Shown: piece after piece, positions 4,642 through 23,933 of the stretch
Numbering within the stretch: position 1 is the first letter of the stretch
Layout of the letters: every line of letters begins with the position of its first letter
Assembly: GCF_024273195.1 (NCBI RefSeq)
Contig: NZ_JAMZCU010000003.1
Location: 458,807-522,806 of the forward strand
Origin: Devosia ureilytica
GTDB taxonomy: Bacteria > Pseudomonadota > Alphaproteobacteria > Rhizobiales > Devosiaceae
Direction: 5' to 3'
Length of the DNA stretch: 64,000 nucleotides
Program-made: the position numbers and the translations under genes
Notes under the pieces: generated by a model
What the model was told of the DNA's origin: nothing
Database searches by the model: none
Seen by the model: only the letters and a program-made list of their open reading frames with translations

Positions 4642-5022
4642 TTTCCATCCTCCCAGACTTGTCTAGAATGGTAGTGGTCGATCCTCAGCCGAAACTTCGC
4701 CTGTCCGATTGACCGCCACGCCTGTTCGCCTCGGCCCGTCCGGGCCACTACGGCGCCGGATGCAAATAAGCCTAACGCGTTGCTGCCTCTGTGAAACTTC
4801 TGTTTTCGCCGAGCGATTTTGCACGCCTACACGACATATTGATACCTCGCCTTTTTCGAGCTAGGCTTCGCCCCATCGAATATTGCGGCCGACTGATCTG
4901 AAGACGCGAATTCCATTCGCAACTGCTGACGTCATCTTCCGATATTTCGATATCAACTAGGTTCCTGGCCAGGTGCATGGTCGGGGCCGATCCAGCAGCG
5001 ACTGCACGAGGGAACGCGCATC
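4642..5022. other. Intergenic region with the long 5' leader of the cold-shock gene
   Basis: 381 bp between the methyltransferase start (minus) and the cold-shock gene (plus). It is more AT-rich than its surroundings, as expected for divergent promoters plus the long structured leader typical of csp mRNAs. No convincing sigma-70 hexamer pair was found; a TTGCAC at about 4816 is the best -35 candidate. No small ORF or terminator stands out. Confidence 0.4.
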
Positions 5023-6814: not shown

Positions 6815-7288
6815 ATGGACAAGGTTCCGATGACGATTCAGGGCCACAAGGCCCTTGCCGCGGAGTTCGAGCACCGCACCAGCAACGAGCGTCGTCGCAT
6901 CATCGACGCCATTGCCGAGGCCCGCGCCCACGGCGATTTGTCCGAAAACGCCGAATATTCGGCGGCCAAGGAACAGCAGAGCCTCAACGAAGGCCGCGTC
7001 AAGGAACTCGAGACCCTTCTCGCCCTGGCCGACGTTATCGATGTCAGCAAGTTGAGCGGCGACAAGGTCAAGTTCGGCGCCACGGTCACCTATATCGATG
7101 AGGACACCGAGGAAGAGAAAACCTATCAGGTCGTTGGCGATCCCGAGGCCGACGCCTCGGCGGGCCGCATTTCCATCTCCTCGCCCATCGCCCGCGCCAT
7201 GATCGGCAAGGAAGAAGGCGATTCGTTCGAAGTGGCAGCGCCTGGCGGCGCCCGCAGCTACGAGATCATCAAGATCCGTTACATCTGA
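6815..7288 (+). CDS. greA: Transcription elongation factor GreA
   Basis: 157 residues, the standard GreA length. It enters the RNA polymerase secondary channel and stimulates cleavage of backtracked transcripts. The N-terminal antiparallel coiled coil (about residues 10-75) ends in the LSENAEY tip region with the acidic catalytic residues Asp41 and Glu44 at the E. coli positions. The C-terminal FKBP-like domain carries the [14 protein letters not shown] block. GGAGGCAGC upstream is the ribosome site. The gene stands alone, followed 240 bp later by trxB on the same strand. Confidence 0.95.
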
Positions 7289-7526: not shown

Positions 7527-8477
7527 ATGCACGCGAAAGTCATCATTATTGGCTCCGGTCCGGCCGGCTATACAGCTGCCATCTACGCGGCGCGCGCCAT
7601 GCTTGAACCGGTGATGATCCAGGGCCTGCAGCCCGGTGGCCAGCTCACCATCACCACCGATGTCGAGAACTATCCCGGCTTCGCTGATGTCATCCAGGGC
7701 CCCTGGCTCATGGAGCAGATGAAGGCTCAGGCCGAGCATGTCGGCACGCGCATCATCAATGACATTGTCACCTCGGTCGATTTCGATCAGCGCCCCTTCG
7801 TGCTCAACACCGATAGCGGCGAAACCCACACCGCTGACAGCCTGATCATCGCTACCGGTGCCCAGGCCAAGTGGCTTGGCATTCCGTCCGAACAGAAGTT
7901 CCAGGGCTTTGGCGTATCCGCTTGCGCCACCTGCGATGGCTTCTTTTATCGCGGCAAGCAGGTGCTGGTGGTCGGAGGCGGCAATACCGCCGTTGAGGAA
8001 GCCCTGTTTCTCACCAATTTCGCCGAAAAGGTTATCGTCGTGCACCGCCGCGACGAGTTCCGCGCCGAACGCATCCTGCAGGATCGCCTGTTCAAGAACC
8101 CCAAGATCGAAGTGCGCTGGAACACCGAGGTCGCCGAAGTTGGCGGCACGCCCATGCCACCCTCGGTCAACACCGTCACCCTGCGCAGCACCACTTCAGG
8201 CGAGACCTACGAGCAGCCCATCGATGGAATTTTCGTCGCAATCGGCCATGCGCCGGCGACCGCCATCTTTGCCGGCAAGCTCGACATGAAGCCCGGTGGT
8301 TATCTGCAGGTGAAGCCGGGGTCGACCGAAACCAATATTCCCGGCGTTTTTGCCGCCGGCGACGTGACCGACGACATCTACCGCCAGGCCGTGACTGCGG
8401 CAGGCATGGGCTGCATGGCGGCCCTCGATGCCGAGCGGTTCCTGGCCGAGCACGAACTGGCAGAGGCGGCCGAATAG
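7527..8477 (+). CDS. trxB: Thioredoxin-disulfide reductase
   Basis: A 316-residue FAD flavoenzyme that uses NADPH to reduce thioredoxin. The FAD-binding GSGPAG is at residues 9-14, the redox-active CATC at 133-136, the NADPH-binding VVGGGNTA near 148-155 and the late FAD motif GVFAAGDVTD near residue 280. Length and motif order are those of the low-molecular-weight bacterial enzyme. It is followed after 115 bp by a LysR regulator on the same strand, an arrangement known from other Hyphomicrobiales (trxB-lsrB). Confidence 0.96.
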   Translation: MHAKVIIIGSGPAGYTAAIYAARAMLEPVMIQGLQPGGQLTITTDVENYPGFADVIQGPWLMEQMKAQAEHVGTRIINDIVTSVDFDQRPFVLNTDSGETHTADSLIIATGAQAKWLGIPSEQKFQGFGVSACATCDGFFYRGKQVLVVGGGNTAVEEALFLTNFAEKVIVVHRRDEFRAERILQDRLFKNPKIEVRWNTEVAEVGGTPMPPSVNTVTLRSTTSGETYEQPIDGIFVAIGHAPATAIFAGKLDMKPGGYLQVKPGSTETNIPGVFAAGDVTDDIYRQAVTAAGMGCMAALDAERFLAEHELAEAAE

Positions 8478-8592: not shown

Positions 8593-9486
8593 ATGCTCGA
8601 CTGGGACAAGCTACGGATTTTCCACACGGCCGCCGAGTCGGGCAGCTTCACTCATGCCGCTGAAAAGCTGGGCATGAGCCAGTCGGCGGTCAGCCGCCAG
8701 ATTTCTGCACTCGAGGATGATCTGGGCCTCAAGCTCTTCATTCGCCACGCCCGCGGCCTGGTGCTGACCGAGGTTGGCGAACAGCTCTTCCGCACCGCCC
8801 ATCGCATGCACTGGGAACTCCAGCAGGTCGAAACCCAGATGTCCGAAAGCCAGGACGTCCCCACCGGCCCGCTCATTGTCACTACCACCGTGGGTATCGG
8901 CTCAACCTGGCTGTCCTCGCGCCTCGACGAGTTTTTGAAGCTCTATCCGCTGATCCAGCTCGAAATCCGCCTCAACGACGCCGAACTGGACCTGGCCATG
9001 CGCGAGGCCGACGTGGCCATCCGCCTGCACCGGCCCAACCAGTCGGAAATGATCCAGCGCAAGCTGTTCACTGTCCACAACCACTTCTATGCCGCCGATA
9101 CCTATGTCGATGAGCATGGCATGCCAAAATCCCCTGAGGACCTCGACAACCATCGCATCATCAGCTTTGGCGAGCCGGTGCCCTCCTATCTGGGTGACAT
9201 CAACTATCTCGAACGCATGGGCCGGGCCGATTCCAGCCCGCGTCGCGCCGCCCTTCGCGTCAACGCCATCTATGGCATGATGCAGGCCTGCCGCGCCGGC
9301 ATCGGCATCGCCATGCTGCCCGACTATGTTACCGAAAAAGAAGACGGCCTGGTCCAGATCCTGCCCGAAATCGAACTGCCCCACTACGAGGCCTATTTCG
9401 TCTACCCCCCAGCCCTCAAGAACTCCAAGCGCGTCGGCGTCTTCCGCGACTTCCTCGTCTCCAAGGCCCGTGAGTGGTCGTTCTGA
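8593..9486 (+). CDS. LysR-type regulator, LsrB/VtlR-like by sequence context
   Basis: A 297-residue LysR-family regulator: winged helix at residues 5-62 (FHTAAESGSFTHAAEKLGMSQSAVSRQISALE) and a type 2 periplasmic-binding-like effector domain from about residue 95. In Sinorhizobium, Agrobacterium and Brucella the orthologue immediately downstream of trxB is LsrB/VtlR, which governs redox or envelope functions and small-RNA expression. Orthology here is inferred from gene order. I see a single cysteine (in QACRAGIG), so a multi-cysteine redox switch is not obvious. The ATG at 8593 is where the helix-turn-helix begins. Confidence 0.82.
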   Translation: MLDWDKLRIFHTAAESGSFTHAAEKLGMSQSAVSRQISALEDDLGLKLFIRHARGLVLTEVGEQLFRTAHRMHWELQQVETQMSESQDVPTGPLIVTTTVGIGSTWLSSRLDEFLKLYPLIQLEIRLNDAELDLAMREADVAIRLHRPNQSEMIQRKLFTVHNHFYAADTYVDEHGMPKSPEDLDNHRIISFGEPVPSYLGDINYLERMGRADSSPRRAALRVNAIYGMMQACRAGIGIAMLPDYVTEKEDGLVQILPEIELPHYEAYFVYPPALKNSKRVGVFRDFLVSKAREWSF

Positions 9487-9638: not shown

Positions 9639-10346
9639 ATGCCCCGCATCACCACCATCGCCCTCGATGCCGATGACACGCTCTGGCAGAACGAGCAGTT
9701 TTTCCGCCTGACCGAGCAACGCTTTTCCGATCTCTTGCGCGACTATACCGATGCGCCCGACCTCACCGAGCGTCTGATCACCGCCACCGCTCGCAATCTC
9801 CAGTTCTACGGCTTTGGCGCCAAGGGCTTTGCCCTTTCCATGGTCGAAACCGCGCTTGAGGTCACCGAACATCGCGTCCCCGGCACCGTCATTGCCGAAA
9901 TTCTCGCCGCCGGTCGTGAACTGCTCGACTATCCGCTCGAAACCCTGCCTTATGTCGATGCGGCGCTCGAGCACCTGCAGCATCGCTACCGGCTGATCGT
10001 TATCACCAAGGGCGACATTTTCGATCAGGAGCGCAAGCTGGCCGCTTCGGGCCTGGCGGATTATTTCGCCGCCGTCGAAGTCGTGGCCGACAAGACCGAA
10101 GCCGTCTATCGCCGCATTTTCGCCCGCCACACCGAGGGGGCCGAACACACCATCATGGCCGGCAATTCCCTCAAGTCCGACATTCTTCCCGCCATAGCGG
10201 CAGGCGCCTTTGCCGCCCACGTGCCGCACGATCTCACCTGGTCCTACGAGCACGCCGAGGAACCCGCCGATCATCCGCGCTACACCCGCATCGCCCACCT
10301 GGGCGAGCTACAAGCTGCCATCGACCGCCTTGAGGCTTCGAACTAG
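9639..10346 (+). CDS. HAD-superfamily hydrolase (YjjG/phosphoglycolate phosphatase-like)
   Basis: A 235-residue HAD phosphatase, cytosolic, expected to hydrolyse a small phosphomonoester. Motif I is DADDTLW (nucleophile Asp10, acid/base Asp12), motif II VITKG, motif III lysine in the DKTE region and motif IV NSLKSDI. A helical cap of about 80 residues lies between motifs I and II. The substrate cannot be told. The last 50 bp of this gene recur, degenerated, in every unit of the downstream tandem array. Confidence 0.88.
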   Translation: MPRITTIALDADDTLWQNEQFFRLTEQRFSDLLRDYTDAPDLTERLITATARNLQFYGFGAKGFALSMVETALEVTEHRVPGTVIAEILAAGRELLDYPLETLPYVDAALEHLQHRYRLIVITKGDIFDQERKLAASGLADYFAAVEVVADKTEAVYRRIFARHTEGAEHTIMAGNSLKSDILPAIAAGAFAAHVPHDLTWSYEHAEEPADHPRYTRIAHLGELQAAIDRLEASN

Positions 10347-12085
10347 GCGGCCGGCTTATGCACTCAATCTAGGTTTGTCCCTCCCTCCCCCTTGTGGGGA
10401 GGGTAGCGACGCTAGACCCAACGGGTCGTAGCAGAGCTAGGGTGGGGGTGCCGGATTTGCCACCTCACGGGGCCAGGGTCGGTGCCGACGTCCGGCCCCC
10501 GGGCCCCTGCGGCCCCGAACCAGCCTCCCCGCAACCCACTGAACCCGGGTTTGTCCCTCCCTCCCCCCTGTGGGGAGGGTAGCGACGCTAGACCCAACGG
10601 GTCGTAGCAGAGCTAGGGTGGGGGTGCCGGATTTGCCACATCACGGGGCCAGGGTCTGTGCCGACGTCCGGCCCCCGGGCCCCTGCGGCCCCGAACCAGC
10701 CTCCCCGCAACACACTGAACCCGGGTTTGTCCCTCCCTCCCCCCTGTGGGGAGGGTAGCGACGCTAGACCCAACGGGTCGTAGCAGAGCTGGGGTGGGGG
10801 GGGGTGCCGGATTTGCCACCCCCGTAAGAAACCGCCTGGGCGAGCACAAGCCGCCATCGGCCGCCTTGCGGCGCCGAACCAGCCTCCCCGCTACACACTG
10901 AACCCGGGTTCGTCCCTCCCTCCCCCTTGTGGGGAGGGTAGCGACGCTGGACCCAAAGGGTCGTAGCAGAGCTGGGGTGGGGGTGCCGGATGTGCCCCCT
11001 CACGGCGCCAGGGGCGGTGCCCCCGTCCGGCCCCCGCGCCCCTGCGGCGCCGAACCAGCCTCCCCGCTACACACTGCACCCGGGTTCGTCCCCCCCTCCC
11101 CCTTGGGGGGAGGGTAGCGACGCTGGACCCACAGGGTCGTAGCAGAGCTGGGGTGGGGGGGGGTGCATGGAAAGCCACCCCCGTAAGAAACCGCCAGGGC
11201 GAGCTACAGGCCGCCATCAACCGCCTTGAGGCCCCGAACCAGGCTCCCGGCCATATACTGAACCCAGCTCCGTCCCTCCCTCCCCCTTGTGGGGAGGGTA
11301 GCGCCGCTAGACCCAACGGGTCGTAGCAGAGCTGGGGTGGGGGTGCCGGGATTTACCACCGCCCGTAAGACACCGACAGGGCGAGCACCAGGCCGCAAGC
11401 AACCGCCTTGAGGCCCCGAACCAGGCGCCCGGCCATATACTGAACCCAGCTCCGTCCCTCCCTCCCCCGGGTGGGGAGGGTAGCGCCGCTAGACCCAACG
11501 GGTCGTAGCAGAGCTGGGGTGGGGGTGCCGGATTTGCCACCCCCGCAAGAAACCGCCTGGGCGAGCACAAGCCGCCATCGACCGCCTTGAGGCCCCGAAC
11601 CAGCCTCCCCGCTACACACTGAACCCGGGTTTGTCCCTCCCTCCCCCCTGTGGGGAGGGTAGCGACGCTAGACCCAAAGGGTCATAGCAGAGCTGGGGTG
11701 GGGGTACCGGGATCTCCCACCGCCCGTAAGAACCGCCTGGGCGAGCTACAAGCTGCCATCGACCGCCTTGCGGCGCCGAACCAGCCTCCCCGCTACACAC
11801 TGAACCGGGGTTTGTCCCTCCCTCCCCCCTGTGGGGAGGGTAGCGCCGCTGGACCCAACGGGTCGTAGCAGAGCTGGGGTGGGGGTGCCGGATTTGCCAC
11901 CACCGCACGAAACCGCCTGGGCGCGCTACAAGCTGCCATCGACCGCCTTGCGGCGCCGAACCAGCCTCCCCGCTACACACTGACCCGGGGTTTGTCCCTC
12001 CCTCCCCCCGGTGGGGAGGGTAGCGCCGCTGGACCCAACGGGTCGTAGCAGAGCTGGGGTGGGGGTGCCGGATTTGCCACATCGC
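10298..12085 (+). repeat. Tandem array, about ten 178-182-bp units combining the HAD gene 3' end and the 70-bp hairpin repeat
   Basis: The hairpin repeat begins at about 10379, 10557, 10735, 10916, 11094, 11276, 11457, 11636, 11816 and 11996, a spacing of 178-182 bp. Between copies most units carry a degenerate copy of the end of the HAD gene: positions 11736-11770 are identical over 35 nt to 10298-10332 inside the gene. Units two and three carry a diverged linker rich in CGGCCCC instead. Because 180 is divisible by three, long spurious reading frames run through the array on both strands; none has a ribosome site or protein-like composition. Confidence 0.9.
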
Positions 12086-12271
12086 GGGGCCAGGGTATGT
12101 ACCGACGTCCCCAGGCCCTTGTGCCGCCTAAGCGCTGGCGACCCCAACGCCGCTCAAAAATCGCCCTGCACCCCTGTGGCAGCGGGTCGCATGCCCGCAC
12201 CCTCCATTGTTTTCATTGAATAAATCTCAACCACATGCACCAGCCGCATGGCTGGCATAACTTTAGTCGGA

Positions 12272-12300
12272 TTGGCGAACCGGGTGACCACCCCTATATG
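12272..12300 (+). promoter_or_regulatory. Predicted promoter of small RNA 1
   Basis: TTGGCG at 12272-12277 and TATATG at 12295-12300, exactly 17 bp apart. The predicted start of transcription is about 12307, just before the first hairpin. Confidence 0.6.
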
Positions 12301-12306
12301 CGCCTC

Positions 12307-12421
12307 ATCACAGCGGGTGTTTTCTCCTCCCTCCCTTGCGCCCGCTGCGTTCCCTCCTGACAGATCCTTGATCTGTCCCCCTTAGGGCTCCGCTCTCCCC
12401 TCGAGCGGGGCCTTTCTTTTT
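12307..12421 (+). ncRNA. Predicted small RNA 1 (pyrimidine-rich loop, about 115 nt)
   Basis: Bounded by the promoter above and a terminator. It folds as hairpin 1, CAGCGGG (12311-12317) with CCCGCTG (12341-12347), whose large loop holds CCTCCCTCCC, complementary to a ribosome binding site. Hairpin 2 is GACAGATC/GATCTGTC around 12359-12377, followed by the terminator hairpin. It resembles the alphaproteobacterial anti-Shine-Dalgarno small RNAs in general design but differs from the two neighbouring RNAs. Strand is set by the T-run of the terminator. Confidence 0.65.
12386..12421 (+). terminator. Terminator of small RNA 1
   Basis: 10-bp stem GGCTCCGCTC/GAGCGGGGCC (one wobble), 7-nt loop, then TTTCTTTTT. 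Confidence 0.8.
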
Positions 12422-12478
12422 GTTCTCCGGCATAACCGTCCCCTGCAAAAGCGCATAGCTGGCATGCCGCTTCTGGGA

Positions 12479-12507
12479 TTGTCTATCAAACCGGTAGAGT
12501 TCATATA
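12479..12507 (+). promoter_or_regulatory. Predicted promoter of small RNA 2
   Basis: TTGTCT at 12479-12484 and CATATA at 12502-12507 with 17 bp between; an alternative -10, TATATG, lies 2 bp further. Predicted start near 12514. Confidence 0.5.
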
Positions 12508-12513
12508 TGTCCT

Positions 12514-12708
12514 CGTTGCTGAGGCGCGCTCCGATCTCCTCCTCCCTTCGGACCCCGTATCGCAACACCGGACTAAGGATCATCTCCTCCTCCCTTGATC
12601 CAAGGTCCATGGCAGAGCGGCATACTCCTCCTCCCTTGCTCTCTGCCCCACTTTCGATTTGGCTTCGGCCCAGTCATCAGGCCCCATCCTCGGATGGGGC
12701 CTCTTTTT
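12514..12708 (+). ncRNA. Predicted small RNA 2, cuckoo-type with three CCUCCUCCC hairpins
   Basis: About 195 nt. Three successive hairpins each expose the identical nonamer CCTCCTCCC: stem TCCGA/TCGGA (motif 12538-12546), stem GGATCA/TGATCC (motif 12586-12594) and stem GGCAGAG/CTCTGCC (motif 12627-12635). A conserved tail (12649-12680) and a strong terminator follow. CCUCCUCCC in hairpin loops is the hallmark of the alphaproteobacterial cuckoo/CcsR small RNA family, Hfq-dependent stress RNAs. Known members mostly show two such loops; three here is notable. Paralogous to small RNA 3 through the tail. Confidence 0.75.
12680..12708 (+). terminator. Terminator of small RNA 2
   Basis: Perfect 9-bp stem GGCCCCATC/GATGGGGCC closed by a CTCG tetraloop, followed by TCTTTTTT. 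Confidence 0.9.
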
Positions 12709-12727
12709 TGCCCAAGAGCGCTTCTAG

Positions 12728-12750
12728 CAAAAGTGGCAACGGTTTTGCGG
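12728..12750 (+). repeat. Short dispersed inverted repeat (GCAAAA/TTTTGC type)
   Basis: GCAAAA and TTTTGC flank a GTGGCAACGG core. The same core occurs twice as a 60-bp tandem duplication at 17,226-17,345, so this is a small repeat family of the chromosome. Confidence 0.6.
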
Positions 12751-12773
12751 TTCAGAGCGCGACAAAACAAAGA

Positions 12774-12818
12774 CCTAGAGCATTTCAGCGTTTCAGCTAA
12801 ACGGTGAAATGCTCTAGG
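12774..12818 (+). repeat. Long palindrome between small RNAs 2 and 3
   Basis: Perfect 14-bp arms CCTAGAGCATTTCA (12774-12787) and TGAAATGCTCTAGG (12805-12818), with an inner CGTTT/AAACG stem. No T-run follows. It looks like a dispersed extragenic palindrome of the Hyphomicrobiales GAGCATTTC type. Confidence 0.75.
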
Positions 12819-12906
12819 CGCAACCTGTCACCAGCCTGTCGGTTTGCCTATTTGTTGGACAGATTGTCGCTGTGCCTAATGCATAGCAGTTATGACGACC
12901 CATGCA

Positions 12907-12935
12907 TTGCTGACCATCCGGTCAAAACCTATATT
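12907..12935 (+). promoter_or_regulatory. Predicted promoter of small RNA 3
   Basis: TTGCTG at 12907-12912 and TATATT at 12930-12935, spacer 17 bp. Predicted start near 12942. Confidence 0.6.
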
Positions 12936-12941
12936 GGCTTT

Positions 12942-13138
12942 GTCGCTGGTGAAGCCGCTCCGTATCCTCCTCCCTCGGACCCGCTTCTTGCGACACCGGA
13001 TCGAAACCGCATCCTCCTCCCGCGGCGACGATCCACCGGTCTGGTGCAAATCCTCCTCCCTTGCATCCGGGCCATCACTTGCGATTTGGCTTCGGCCCTA
13101 TCATCAGGCTCCAACTTCGGTTGGAGCCTCTTTTTTTT
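12942..13138 (+). ncRNA. Predicted small RNA 3, cuckoo-type with three CCUCCUCCC hairpins
   Basis: About 197 nt, nearly the size of small RNA 2. The nonamer CCTCCTCCC occurs at 12966-12974, 13013-13021 and 13052-13060. The second sits in a CCGC/GCGG hairpin and the third in a TGCAA/TTGCA hairpin; the first is bracketed by TCCG/CGGA. The tail GATTTGGCTTCGGCC...TCATCAGGC (13083-13109) matches small RNA 2 at 12656-12682, showing that the two arose by duplication, while the stems have changed with compensating bases. Confidence 0.76.
13107..13138 (+). terminator. Terminator of small RNA 3
   Basis: Perfect 9-bp stem GGCTCCAAC/GTTGGAGCC with a TTCG tetraloop and TCTTTTTTTT. Confidence 0.92.
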
Positions 13139-13218
13139 GCCATGATGTCCCCCGGCCGCGGCCCAATAGGCGCGGCAATGCTCATCGAATCTGCATGGCA
13201 GCATTTCCAATTGCGCGT

Positions 13219-13247
13219 TTGCGTGGCCAATGGCGGCGTCGGATAAT
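13219..13247 (+). promoter_or_regulatory. Predicted promoter of candidate small RNA 4
   Basis: TTGCGT at 13219-13224 and GATAAT at 13242-13247, 17-bp spacer. Confidence 0.5.
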
Positions 13248-13253
13248 GATTTC

Positions 13254-13348
13254 AACGACGGCACTCGTGGTGGCCGTCCCTCCAAGGTCAGCGGCTTCGG
13301 CCAAAGACCTCATGGCCCCGCCCATCCCCTCGGGCGGGGTCTTTTTTT
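13254..13348 (+). ncRNA. Candidate small RNA 4 (about 95 nt)
   Basis: Lies between a plausible promoter and a strong plus-strand terminator and contains no reading frame of note. An ACGGC/GCCGT hairpin is followed by the single-stranded stretch CCCTCCAAGG, which resembles but does not match the nonamer of its neighbours. The neighbouring protein gene is convergent (minus strand), so the terminator cannot belong to it. No known RNA family was recognised. Confidence 0.45.
13316..13348 (+). terminator. Terminator of candidate small RNA 4
   Basis: 8-bp stem CCCCGCCC/GGGCGGGG, 8-nt loop, then TCTTTTTTT. Confidence 0.85.
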
Positions 13349-23240: not shown

Positions 23241-23882
23241 ATGACCATCAAGCGCATCACGTTCGGCACCACCATTGCCGCTATCACCCTGCTCACCACC
23301 CTTGCCGCATCAGCCGCTCCCGGCGTTGCCACCGGCGCAGTCAATGTCCGCACCGGCCCCGGCACCGGCTATGCCAAGGTCGGCACCCTGGCCGCCGGCG
23401 AAGTGGTCGATGTCAAGCAGTGCCAGGGCTCCTGGTGCTTTGTGGACCGCAATTCGGGCACCGACGGCTGGGCCTCCAAGAACTACCTCGCACCCTATGA
23501 GGGCGGCGGCGGTGGCGGCGGCTCGGACGACACCGAAATTCCGTTCAACTTCGGCATGAGCGTCGGCCCTGGCGGCCCCAGCTTCTCCTTCGGCATCGGC
23601 GATGCCCCCCCGCCGCCTCCGCCGCCGCCCGCTCCGGCCAAGGTGTGCTTCTTCAAGGGCAACAATTTCTCCGGCGCCCAGTTCTGCGTCAGCGCTGGCA
23701 CCGACGACCCCAACCTGCCCGGCGGCTGGAATGACTCCATCTCGTCCATCAAGGTTCAGGGCGGGGCCCAGGTCACCGTGTGCAAGAACGTCTGGTATGG
23801 AGGCTTCTGCACCACCATCTCCACCGACAAGCCCGCACTGGGCAGCTACAACAACGCCATTTCGAGCTATCAGGCCTTCTGA
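23241..23882 (+). CDS. Exported SH3b plus beta/gamma-crystallin-like protein 3
   Basis: 213 residues. Signal peptide to ASA-AP, SH3b domain (GAVNVRTGPGTGYAKVGTL to DGWASKNYLAPY), a glycine run and an acidic GMSVGPGGPSFSFGIGD linker with eight consecutive prolines, then the C-terminal domain VCFFKGNNFSGAQFCV and VCKNVWYGGFCTTI with paired cysteines. Nearest in the window to protein 1. Own promoter box, own terminator. Confidence 0.83.
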   Translation: MTIKRITFGTTIAAITLLTTLAASAAPGVATGAVNVRTGPGTGYAKVGTLAAGEVVDVKQCQGSWCFVDRNSGTDGWASKNYLAPYEGGGGGGGSDDTEIPFNFGMSVGPGGPSFSFGIGDAPPPPPPPPAPAKVCFFKGNNFSGAQFCVSAGTDDPNLPGGWNDSISSIKVQGGAQVTVCKNVWYGGFCTTISTDKPALGSYNNAISSYQAF

Positions 23883-23904
23883 ATACGCTCCGCCAAGTGA
23901 TCAG

Positions 23905-23933
23905 GACGCCGCCCTTCGGGGCGGCGTCTTTTT
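23905..23933 (+). terminator. Terminator after SH3 protein 3
   Basis: Perfect 10-bp stem GACGCCGCCC/GGGCGGCGTC, TTCG loop, five T. Confidence 0.92.

Follow-up and report, generated by a model that had tools for sequence, protein, structure and literature searches.

A 64-kb window of Devosia ureilytica DNA, the whole stretch analysed and the one to which all positions refer, carries four consecutive small RNA (sRNA) units on its plus strand at 12.25-13.35 kb. These units probably form an array of anti-Shine-Dalgarno (anti-SD) sRNAs, one AbcR-like, two αr14-like and one further, which is controlled by the LysR-type regulator LsrB and represses transport and metabolic mRNAs. LsrB is taken here to be the same protein as VtlR. 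Direct support for this reading comes from sequence, predicted structure with covariation, conservation, the phasing of upstream boxes and linkage to lsrB. The region is most likely the Devosia version of the trxB-lsrB-AbcR locus, made up of four separately terminated sRNA genes. The original prediction for this stretch had pointed to four plus-strand units; the LsrB-type boxes before all of them, the upstream lsrB gene and the AbcR-like layout of unit 1 lie beyond it.

Four RNA units and their predicted structures

The units are as follows, with start sites guessed from the -10 elements:

12306-12421, plus strand: unit 1, AbcR-like sRNA (-10 at 12295-12300; 5' hairpin 12311-12347; second hairpin 12359-12377; terminator 12384-12414)
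12514-12710, plus strand: unit 2, sRNA (hairpins 1 to 3 at 12515-12566, 12570-12608 and 12611-12647, each with a CCUCCUCCC loop; hairpin 4 at 12656-12675; terminator 12679-12702)
12942-13139, plus strand: unit 3, sRNA paralogous to unit 2 (hairpins 1 to 3 at 12942-12994, 12998-13034 and 13038-13073, each with a CCUCCUCCC loop; hairpin 4 at 13083-13102; terminator 13106-13129)
13253-13348, plus strand: unit 4, sRNA (-10 GATAAT at 13242-13247; 5' hairpin 13257-13278; CCCUCC 13278-13283; middle hairpin 13285-13310; terminator 13314-13341)

The four plus-strand terminators agree with the original prediction, and sites resembling terminators number six over both strands, where shuffles give a mean of 1.9. 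The nonamer CCTCCTCCC occurs at six sites in the window, all on the plus strand and only in units 2 and 3 (12538, 12586 and 12627 in unit 2; 12966, 13013 and 13052 in unit 3). Shuffled windows contain a mean of 0.94 sites, and none of 100 shuffles reached six. In the genome as a whole the nonamer shows no enrichment (25 sites, with 23 for a reversed control), so its clustering and placement are what count. The pair of sites nearest the window (genome G000, contig C14, 450520 and 450964) was rejected as an sRNA candidate and resembles the repeat family of the array at 10.4-12.1 kb.

Unit 2 folds at -78.5 kcal/mol and unit 3 at -76.6 kcal/mol, each with a z-score of -5.7. In the predicted folds all six loop motifs are unpaired, with a mean probability of at least 0.999. 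A fourth hairpin of the GGCUUCGGCC type follows in both units, then the terminator, and this tail and terminator are common to the two. A DNA search with unit 2 finds matches in 68 of 75 genomes of the same genus, and two copies stand in tandem in all 68 loci, the second copy or a changed motif having been placed by hand in nine. Exactly three CCTCCTCC matches are present in unit 2 in 61/68 loci and in unit 3 in 67/68. Two genomes (L144 and L146) hold three triple-loop RNAs in tandem rather than two. Contigs of Devosia sp. Root436 and of D. indica contain both triple-motif copies.

Compensating changes support the predicted pairing. Across 68 sequences of unit 2, both partners of a pair are changed in 226 alignment cells. 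Shuffles average 69.5, and none of 500 reached 226; structures slid along the alignment give at most 58. For unit 3 (68 sequences), the corresponding figures are 240 cells, a shuffle mean of 58.4 and at most 40 for slid structures. Shuffles can be exceeded through kinship without structure, so that most weight falls on the slid control, which is clear for three units (2, 3 and 4) but weaker for unit 1. In unit 2, the outer helix of the second hairpin pairs in only 64.6% of cells, partly from misalignment. The original prediction had described an identical nonamer three times per unit in hairpin loops, stems that differ yet stay paired, and a shared tail, and the Devosia alignments bear out all of this.

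Of 136 sequences in a tree, 132 group by unit, with unit 2 apart from unit 3, which places the duplication before most of the genus Devosia. In one locus (L156, genome G042), unit 3 has unit 2-type sequence throughout, by eye and by tree, and in another (L137, genome G017) the third hairpin of unit 3 is of unit 2 type by eye. These two loci suggest exchange or gene conversion between the tandem copies.

Unit 1 folds at -50.0 kcal/mol (z -7.45, for 12305-12421) and is predicted to expose two CU-rich stretches. The first, CUCCUCCC at 12324-12331, lies in the loop of the 5' hairpin and is unpaired at 1.0; the second, UUCCCUCCU at 12350-12358, forms the linker between the first and second hairpins and is unpaired at 0.99. 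A pattern search locates the unit in 60/68 loci, and six of the other eight show it by eye, L140 and L145 being the two that do not. In an alignment of 46 of the 60 extracted sequences, thinned by eye, UUCCCUCCU is almost invariant, and 111 cells are changed on both sides against a shuffle mean of 49.4 and 65 for the structure slid by +1. Only 58.9% of cells pair in the second helix, and of the five measures one fails to beat the shuffles (208/500).

Unit 4 folds at -46.2 kcal/mol (z -2.5), with its CCCUCC mostly unpaired (0.82) in the predicted fold. It was located by pattern in 59/68 loci, and one of the nine misses (L102) lies at a contig end. Among 46 of the 59 extracted sequences, again thinned by eye, 46 cells are changed on both sides, compared with a shuffle mean of 12.2. 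A weak match of the unit 4 model at 23838-23933 is an ordinary gene terminator. Units 1 and 4 had been presented as RNAs different from the triple-loop pair; they are less different than stated, as both carry unpaired CU-rich anti-SD stretches.

Predicted promoters, LsrB-type boxes and linkage to lsrB

Each unit is preceded by a box of the form GCAT-N3-TG-N3-T or its TG-to-AG variant. PMC8844928 gives this consensus for LsrB binding, at -61 to -49 of PabcR1. The boxes in the window are:

12246-12258, plus strand: LsrB/VtlR-type box of unit 1 (GCATGGCTGGCAT), exact consensus
12453-12465, plus strand: LsrB/VtlR-type box of unit 2 (GCATAGCTGGCAT), exact consensus
12881-12893, plus strand: LsrB/VtlR-type box of unit 3 (GCATAGCAGTTAT), TG-to-AG variant, one base off
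13193-13205, plus strand: LsrB/VtlR-type box of unit 4 (GCATGGCAGCATT), TG-to-AG variant

At all four units of the window, the -35 TTG starts 26 bp and the -10 element 49 bp after the start of the box. Genus-wide, with each box taken by best score in a fixed interval and counts made over the boxes found, this phasing of TTG and -10 holds in 58 and 57 of 62 for unit 1, 68 and 68 of 68 for unit 2, 68 and 66 of 68 for unit 3, and 52 and 50 of 57 for unit 4. The exact consensus is present at 38/62, 62/68, 39/68 and 14/57 of units 1 to 4, respectively, and the AG variant at 23/68 orthologs of unit 3 and 43/57 of unit 4. Plus-strand consensus matches in the 68 loci number 166, with 160 inside the cluster and 6 in 146,646 bases outside it. 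A scan of the window for E. coli-type promoters found none; the promoters are predicted because they are conserved and fixed in phase, not from the scan. Hence the promoters of the original prediction stand by conservation and phasing and not by the scan, and the layout it had given to the first three units belongs to unit 4 as well. Its starting point, 12272, left outside the unit 1 box that begins at 12246.

The tight form GCAT[AG]GCTG[AG]CAT occurs five times in the genome: at units 1 and 2, at C1:259358, at C1:35017 and at C14:410234. The copy at C1:259358 coincides with the start codon of an open reading frame (ORF), presumably a YajC-like one. According to PMC10746234, LsrB binds and activates the NfeR1 promoter through TGCA-N6-GCAT, and this form is also present at unit 1 of the window. 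Among other genomes, the box precedes 7 of the 29 loci of the αr14 family (ar14 in Rfam, RF02344) whose upstream stretch was read (L163-L166, L182, L183 and L186; the upstream stretch of L179 was left out of the count). The promoter spacer of unit 3 additionally holds a dyad, TGACC-N4-GGTCA at 12911-12924, that overlaps the end of the -35 element and is conserved in the genus; unit 2 has CTATC-N5-GGTAG at the same place. The unit 3 dyad could be a second, repressor-type site.

The proposed regulator and its neighbour lie upstream of the array:

8593-9486, plus strand: lsrB/vtlR ortholog, LysR-type regulator (Pfam HTH_1 and LysR_substrate), proposed activator of the four sRNAs
7527-8477, plus strand: trxB, thioredoxin reductase ORF (Pfam PF07992, 1.8e-56), directly upstream of lsrB

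The gene at 8593-9486 is the best match in its own genome to the LysR-type transcriptional regulator (LTTR) beside AbcR in L193 (55% identity, E 5.7e-113), and the next LTTR reaches 31%. Orthology is assigned by this one-way best match and by the trxB neighbour, and PMC11975290 describes lsrB as consistently in an operon with trxB in Rhizobiales.

The linkage of lsrB and array is conserved across the genus. The lsrB gene was found in 69/75 genomes, and in the 67 that also have the cluster the two share contig and strand in 67/67, with lsrB upstream and 276-3059 bp between its end and the unit 2 match. Two genomes with lsrB alone (L263, L264) have contigs that end soon after it, one of them still retaining unit 1 and the next box; the single genome with the cluster alone has it on a contig of 3.7 kb. 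Neither lsrB nor the cluster was found in five genomes: G044 (99% complete), G055 (91%), G056 (90%), G070 (74%) and G060 (55%). Joint loss of regulator and sRNAs is suggested in G044 and G055.

The same arrangement extends to the family. In other Devosiaceae genera, box-bearing units lie downstream of lsrB in 5/6 genomes: L258, L259 and L260 have two multi-loop units each, one L259 loop being changed, and L257 and L262 have a single triple-loop unit each. The units of L261 bear motifs but lack exact boxes. Outside Devosiaceae, 51 genomes have at least one listed ar14 match and a located lsrB; in 51/51, none of the 121 matches listed, out of at least 121, lies on the lsrB contig within 186 kb of lsrB. 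Given this difference, αr14-type RNAs beside lsrB appear to be special to Devosiaceae.

The surrounding gene order on the plus strand is greA (6815-7288), trxB, the LsrB-type regulator, a HAD hydrolase (9639-10346), a repeat array of about 1.7 kb and the four units, after which aatA follows on the opposite strand. The aminotransferase next to the locus shares 94% identity with its Devosia indica counterpart. The array between the HAD gene and unit 1 (about 10394-12082) is a mosaic of several copies of GGGTTTGTCCCTCCCTCCCCCC...GGGTCGTAGCAGAGCTGGGGTGGGGGTGCC, seen in the sequence and in repeated ORF translations, and a similar copy lies at 450.5 kb on contig C14 of G000. A long inverted repeat (CCTAGAGCATTTC...GAAATGCTCTAGG) occupies 12774-12818 between units 2 and 3. 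Over 12706-12862, the Brucella sRNA CI27 gives a sub-threshold match of 22.3 bits against a cut-off of 59.8. At gathering cut-offs, Rfam has no match anywhere in the 64-kb window.

A proposed mechanism and its alternatives

In the mechanism that we infer, which takes in transcription, LsrB binding, chaperone, targets and phenotype, LsrB/VtlR, encoded 2.8 kb upstream, would bind the box that lies some 61 bp ahead of each start site and activate all four units. Box, phasing and linkage are the reasons for proposing this activation. Each RNA would expose unpaired CU-rich anti-SD seeds: one hairpin loop and one linker in unit 1, three CCUCCUCCC loops each in units 2 and 3, and a linker in unit 4. 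These seeds would pair with GGAGG-rich ribosome-binding sites, the CCUCCUCCC loops with GGAGGAGG sites, and block translation initiation on many mRNAs. Targets would belong mainly to transport and central metabolism, since NfeR1 and AbcR act in this way. Multiple seeds per molecule and multiple genes would raise dose and redundancy. In the genome, GGGAGGAG lies 4-9 bases before an ATG 13 times, one of them in unit 2, against 4 for a reversed control. Pfam was run on the four gene-like ORFs among these matches, and all four are confirmed genes, which encode a TctC-type receptor, an ABC ATPase, a CoA transferase subunit and a transhydrogenase subunit. As for the chaperone, PMC8844928 states that AbcR1/2 bind Hfq "unlike NfeR1", and the blanket Hfq-dependent label of the original prediction is not supported.

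Several results weigh against this account. In Rfam, ar14 fits units 2 and 3 best, with 34.3 bits for unit 2 and 23.9 for unit 3 against a cut-off of 58.8; none of 20 orthologous loci passes, the best reaching 45.2 bits, and a search of the entire genome that holds the window reported no ar14 hit at E 0.001. The low score is likely due to the third motif hairpin preceding a motif-free terminator. Unit 1 scores 18.1 bits with RF02345 (ar15), whose cut-off is 40. The unit 1 model in turn matches AbcR loci weakly (15.8-23.9 bits in L193, L194 and L198), scores 10.4 bits in L195 away from its ar15 place, and gives about the same value, 21.0 bits, for the ar14 locus L167. On the promoter side, units 3 and 4 of the window have the AG variant, and among orthologs the exact consensus is a minority for unit 4 and reaches just 39/68 for unit 3. 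The common phasing could come partly from promoter and RNA duplicating together. With 7/29 loci elsewhere, the box is present in the αr14 family and is not universal there. The candidate targets are four genes, two of them for transport as in the AbcR/NfeR1 target classes, too few for a statistic.

The regulator itself raises a further point of this kind. PMC11975290 ties redox sensing by Agrobacterium LsrB to cysteines that include the conserved C144 and C273. The LsrB of the window has valine at both aligned places, and none of the 12 Devosiaceae proteins that could be read, out of 13 tried (L241-L246, L250-L254 and L256), has a cysteine there; five of them lack cysteine altogether. In two LsrB proteins from another family (L239, L240), no cysteine was seen either. 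With these residues missing, the Devosiaceae proteins read cannot sense by the Agrobacterium thiol switch, and the signal of LsrB in Devosiaceae may differ.

These points bear on the alternatives. One keeps the RNAs and their anti-SD action as proposed and has the boxes read by a regulator other than LsrB, or marking promoter structure, with lsrB a neighbour for other reasons. The AG-variant boxes at units 3 and 4, the conserved second dyad in the unit 3 spacer and the missing cysteines would suit it, but the boxes fit the LsrB consensus and position of PMC8844928, linkage holds in 67/67 genomes, five genomes were found with neither partner, and like boxes precede 7/29 ar14 loci elsewhere; on balance, another regulator is unlikely. 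It is quite unlikely that the RNAs are decoys rather than specific repressors, covering SD sites, lowering translation globally or titrating Hfq. Their seed is presumably the same sequence as the 16S anti-SD tail, any strong SD fits it, and about eight identical or near-identical accessible seeds lie in one locus, all of which a decoy could use. However, the targets of NfeR1 and AbcR are defined transport mRNAs (PMC10746234, PMC8844928), and stems and pairing are kept here, which a pure decoy would hardly need.

A stress cluster of the CcsR/CIN1 type, driven by RpoH, matured from a DUF1127 precursor and acting on one-carbon (C1) metabolism and oxidative stress, is very improbable. It shares CCUCCUCCC loops and tandem copies with the locus, and the CcsR1 model scores up to 35.6 bits in 20 orthologous loci, yet this remains under its cut-off of 65.3. 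The genome's four DUF1127 hits are located on contigs C1, C15, C11 and C17, away from the cluster on C14. Every unit comes with a conserved promoter-like site and a terminator of its own, and the boxes are of the LsrB type, with none seen upstream of the DUF1127 reading frames scanned. Finally, the idea that the region encodes proteins, through minus-strand ORFs with GGGAGGAGG or a plus-strand ORF, can practically be set aside. ORFs of 97-184 amino acids do exist on both strands, and one plus frame of unit 2 is open in 58/68 genomes. However, no frame is open across the unit in all 68 genomes, and the spacing from first to third loop varies modulo 3 (remainders 0, 1 and 2 in 9, 28 and 24 of 61 for unit 2, and in 24, 18 and 25 of 67 for unit 3), so the units are not coding; the covariation is also RNA-like. 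The LsrB-controlled anti-SD array thus remains the preferred reading.

Relation to known RNA families

Unit 1 has the same layout as AbcR1/AbcR2 (αr15, RF02345) and resembles AbcR in position, downstream of lsrB on the same strand; in the window, the HAD gene and the repeat array intervene. Its second seed, UUCCCUCCU, differs in its letters from the AbcR aSD2, UUCCCCUC, which also lies between the first and second hairpin. Unlike AbcR, whose neighbour is a second AbcR, unit 1 has αr14-like neighbours. Nine non-Devosiaceae genomes were searched for ar15 and eight of these for lsrB; in 7/8 with both located, G131 being the exception, ar15 matches follow lsrB on its strand at a distance of 158-525 bp. 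The Rfam cut-off is exceeded in four of these seven, and the others score 29.9, 29.5 and 18.8 bits. Weak ar15 matches in Devosia genomes (E 0.03-0.8) lie mostly elsewhere and were treated as noise, as 8/14 control genomes match at that cut-off. Homology of unit 1 to AbcR is plausible by place and layout and unproven by sequence. Unit 4 aligns over its full length with MmgR/suhB (RF00519), with a similar tail and terminator, and its 25.3 bits against a cut-off of 41 make no case for membership.

Units 2 and 3 share with cuckoo RNAs and CcsR1-4 of Rhodobacter sphaeroides (CIN1 loci) the CCUCCUCCC hairpin loops and tandem copies. The cuckoo RNA RS0680a has two loops (PMC3927594), whereas each Devosia unit has three. 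CcsR is transcribed from an RpoHI/RpoHII promoter with a DUF1127 gene in its precursor (PMC10253847), and no DUF1127 gene is present at the Devosia cluster. The kinship with cuckoo/CcsR that the original prediction proposed survives as paralogous anti-SD RNAs of the αr14/cuckoo/CcsR kind, not as the CcsR-type DUF1127 context. Among the covariance models, ar14 gives the best Rfam match, and the ar14 and CcsR1 cut-offs are both out of reach. The three-loop form, which had been put forward as new, is already described: αr14 RNAs have three hairpins each with CCUCCUCCC (PMC10746234; also PMC7143759 for αr14 with NfeR1), and three CCUCCUCCC hairpins are present in SmelA075 and four in SmelA099 (PMC3927594). 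The latter two resemble units 2 and 3 in their multiple CCUCCUCCC hairpins, occur in several copies per genome and are stress-related (PMC3927594).

A close counterpart is αr14/NfeR1 of Sinorhizobium meliloti. Both have three hairpins, identical CCUCCUCCC loops, variable stems, a CTATAT-like -10 element and an upstream LsrB-type site, which in Devosia is recognized by sequence and position, follows the AbcR1-type consensus and is an AG variant at unit 3. The lengths differ, with about 196 nt for units 2 and 3 against about 120 nt for αr14. In the Rfam ar14 consensus the third motif sits in the terminator loop, whereas units 2 and 3 have three motif hairpins, a fourth hairpin and a motif-free terminator, with CUCG and UUCG as terminator loops. 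Unlike αr14/NfeR1, they form a tandem pair downstream of lsrB. Tandem ar14 copies occur in other genomes as well, for example G209, G142 and G334. A copy from the same family (L258, genome G200, 4686-4875) carries four motifs, the last of which lies in the loop of the terminator hairpin in the predicted fold, and scores 62.2 bits, above the ar14 cut-off; it is an apparent link form between canonical ar14 and the Devosia form. Units 2 and 3 are thus a divergent αr14-type variant, not formal members.

A wider scenario is possible, if doubtful. The trxB-lsrB locus of Hyphomicrobiales may be an ancestral nursery of anti-SD sRNAs, where AbcR (αr15) and NfeR1 (αr14) arose from one LsrB-controlled tandem array. 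Devosiaceae would have kept or rebuilt it as a riboregulon under one regulator, with about four RNAs and, in two genomes, one more triple-loop copy, and their LsrB, without the C144-C273 switch, would answer a different signal. A literature search, with most subscription journals outside its reach, found no Devosia or VtlR-linked cluster of this kind. The parts are already known, the three-loop form included; what seems new is the conserved lsrB-linked array and its one promoter plan for four anti-SD RNAs. The locus is a small natural system in which to test how a single LysR-type activator tunes redundant anti-SD RNAs, bears on why bacteria keep many copies with the same seed, and suggests a testable route by which cuckoo-type RNAs multiply, namely duplication in tandem with the promoter included. 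Conserved across the genus, it joins two separately studied sRNA families, AbcR and αr14/NfeR1, with their common regulator LsrB/VtlR.

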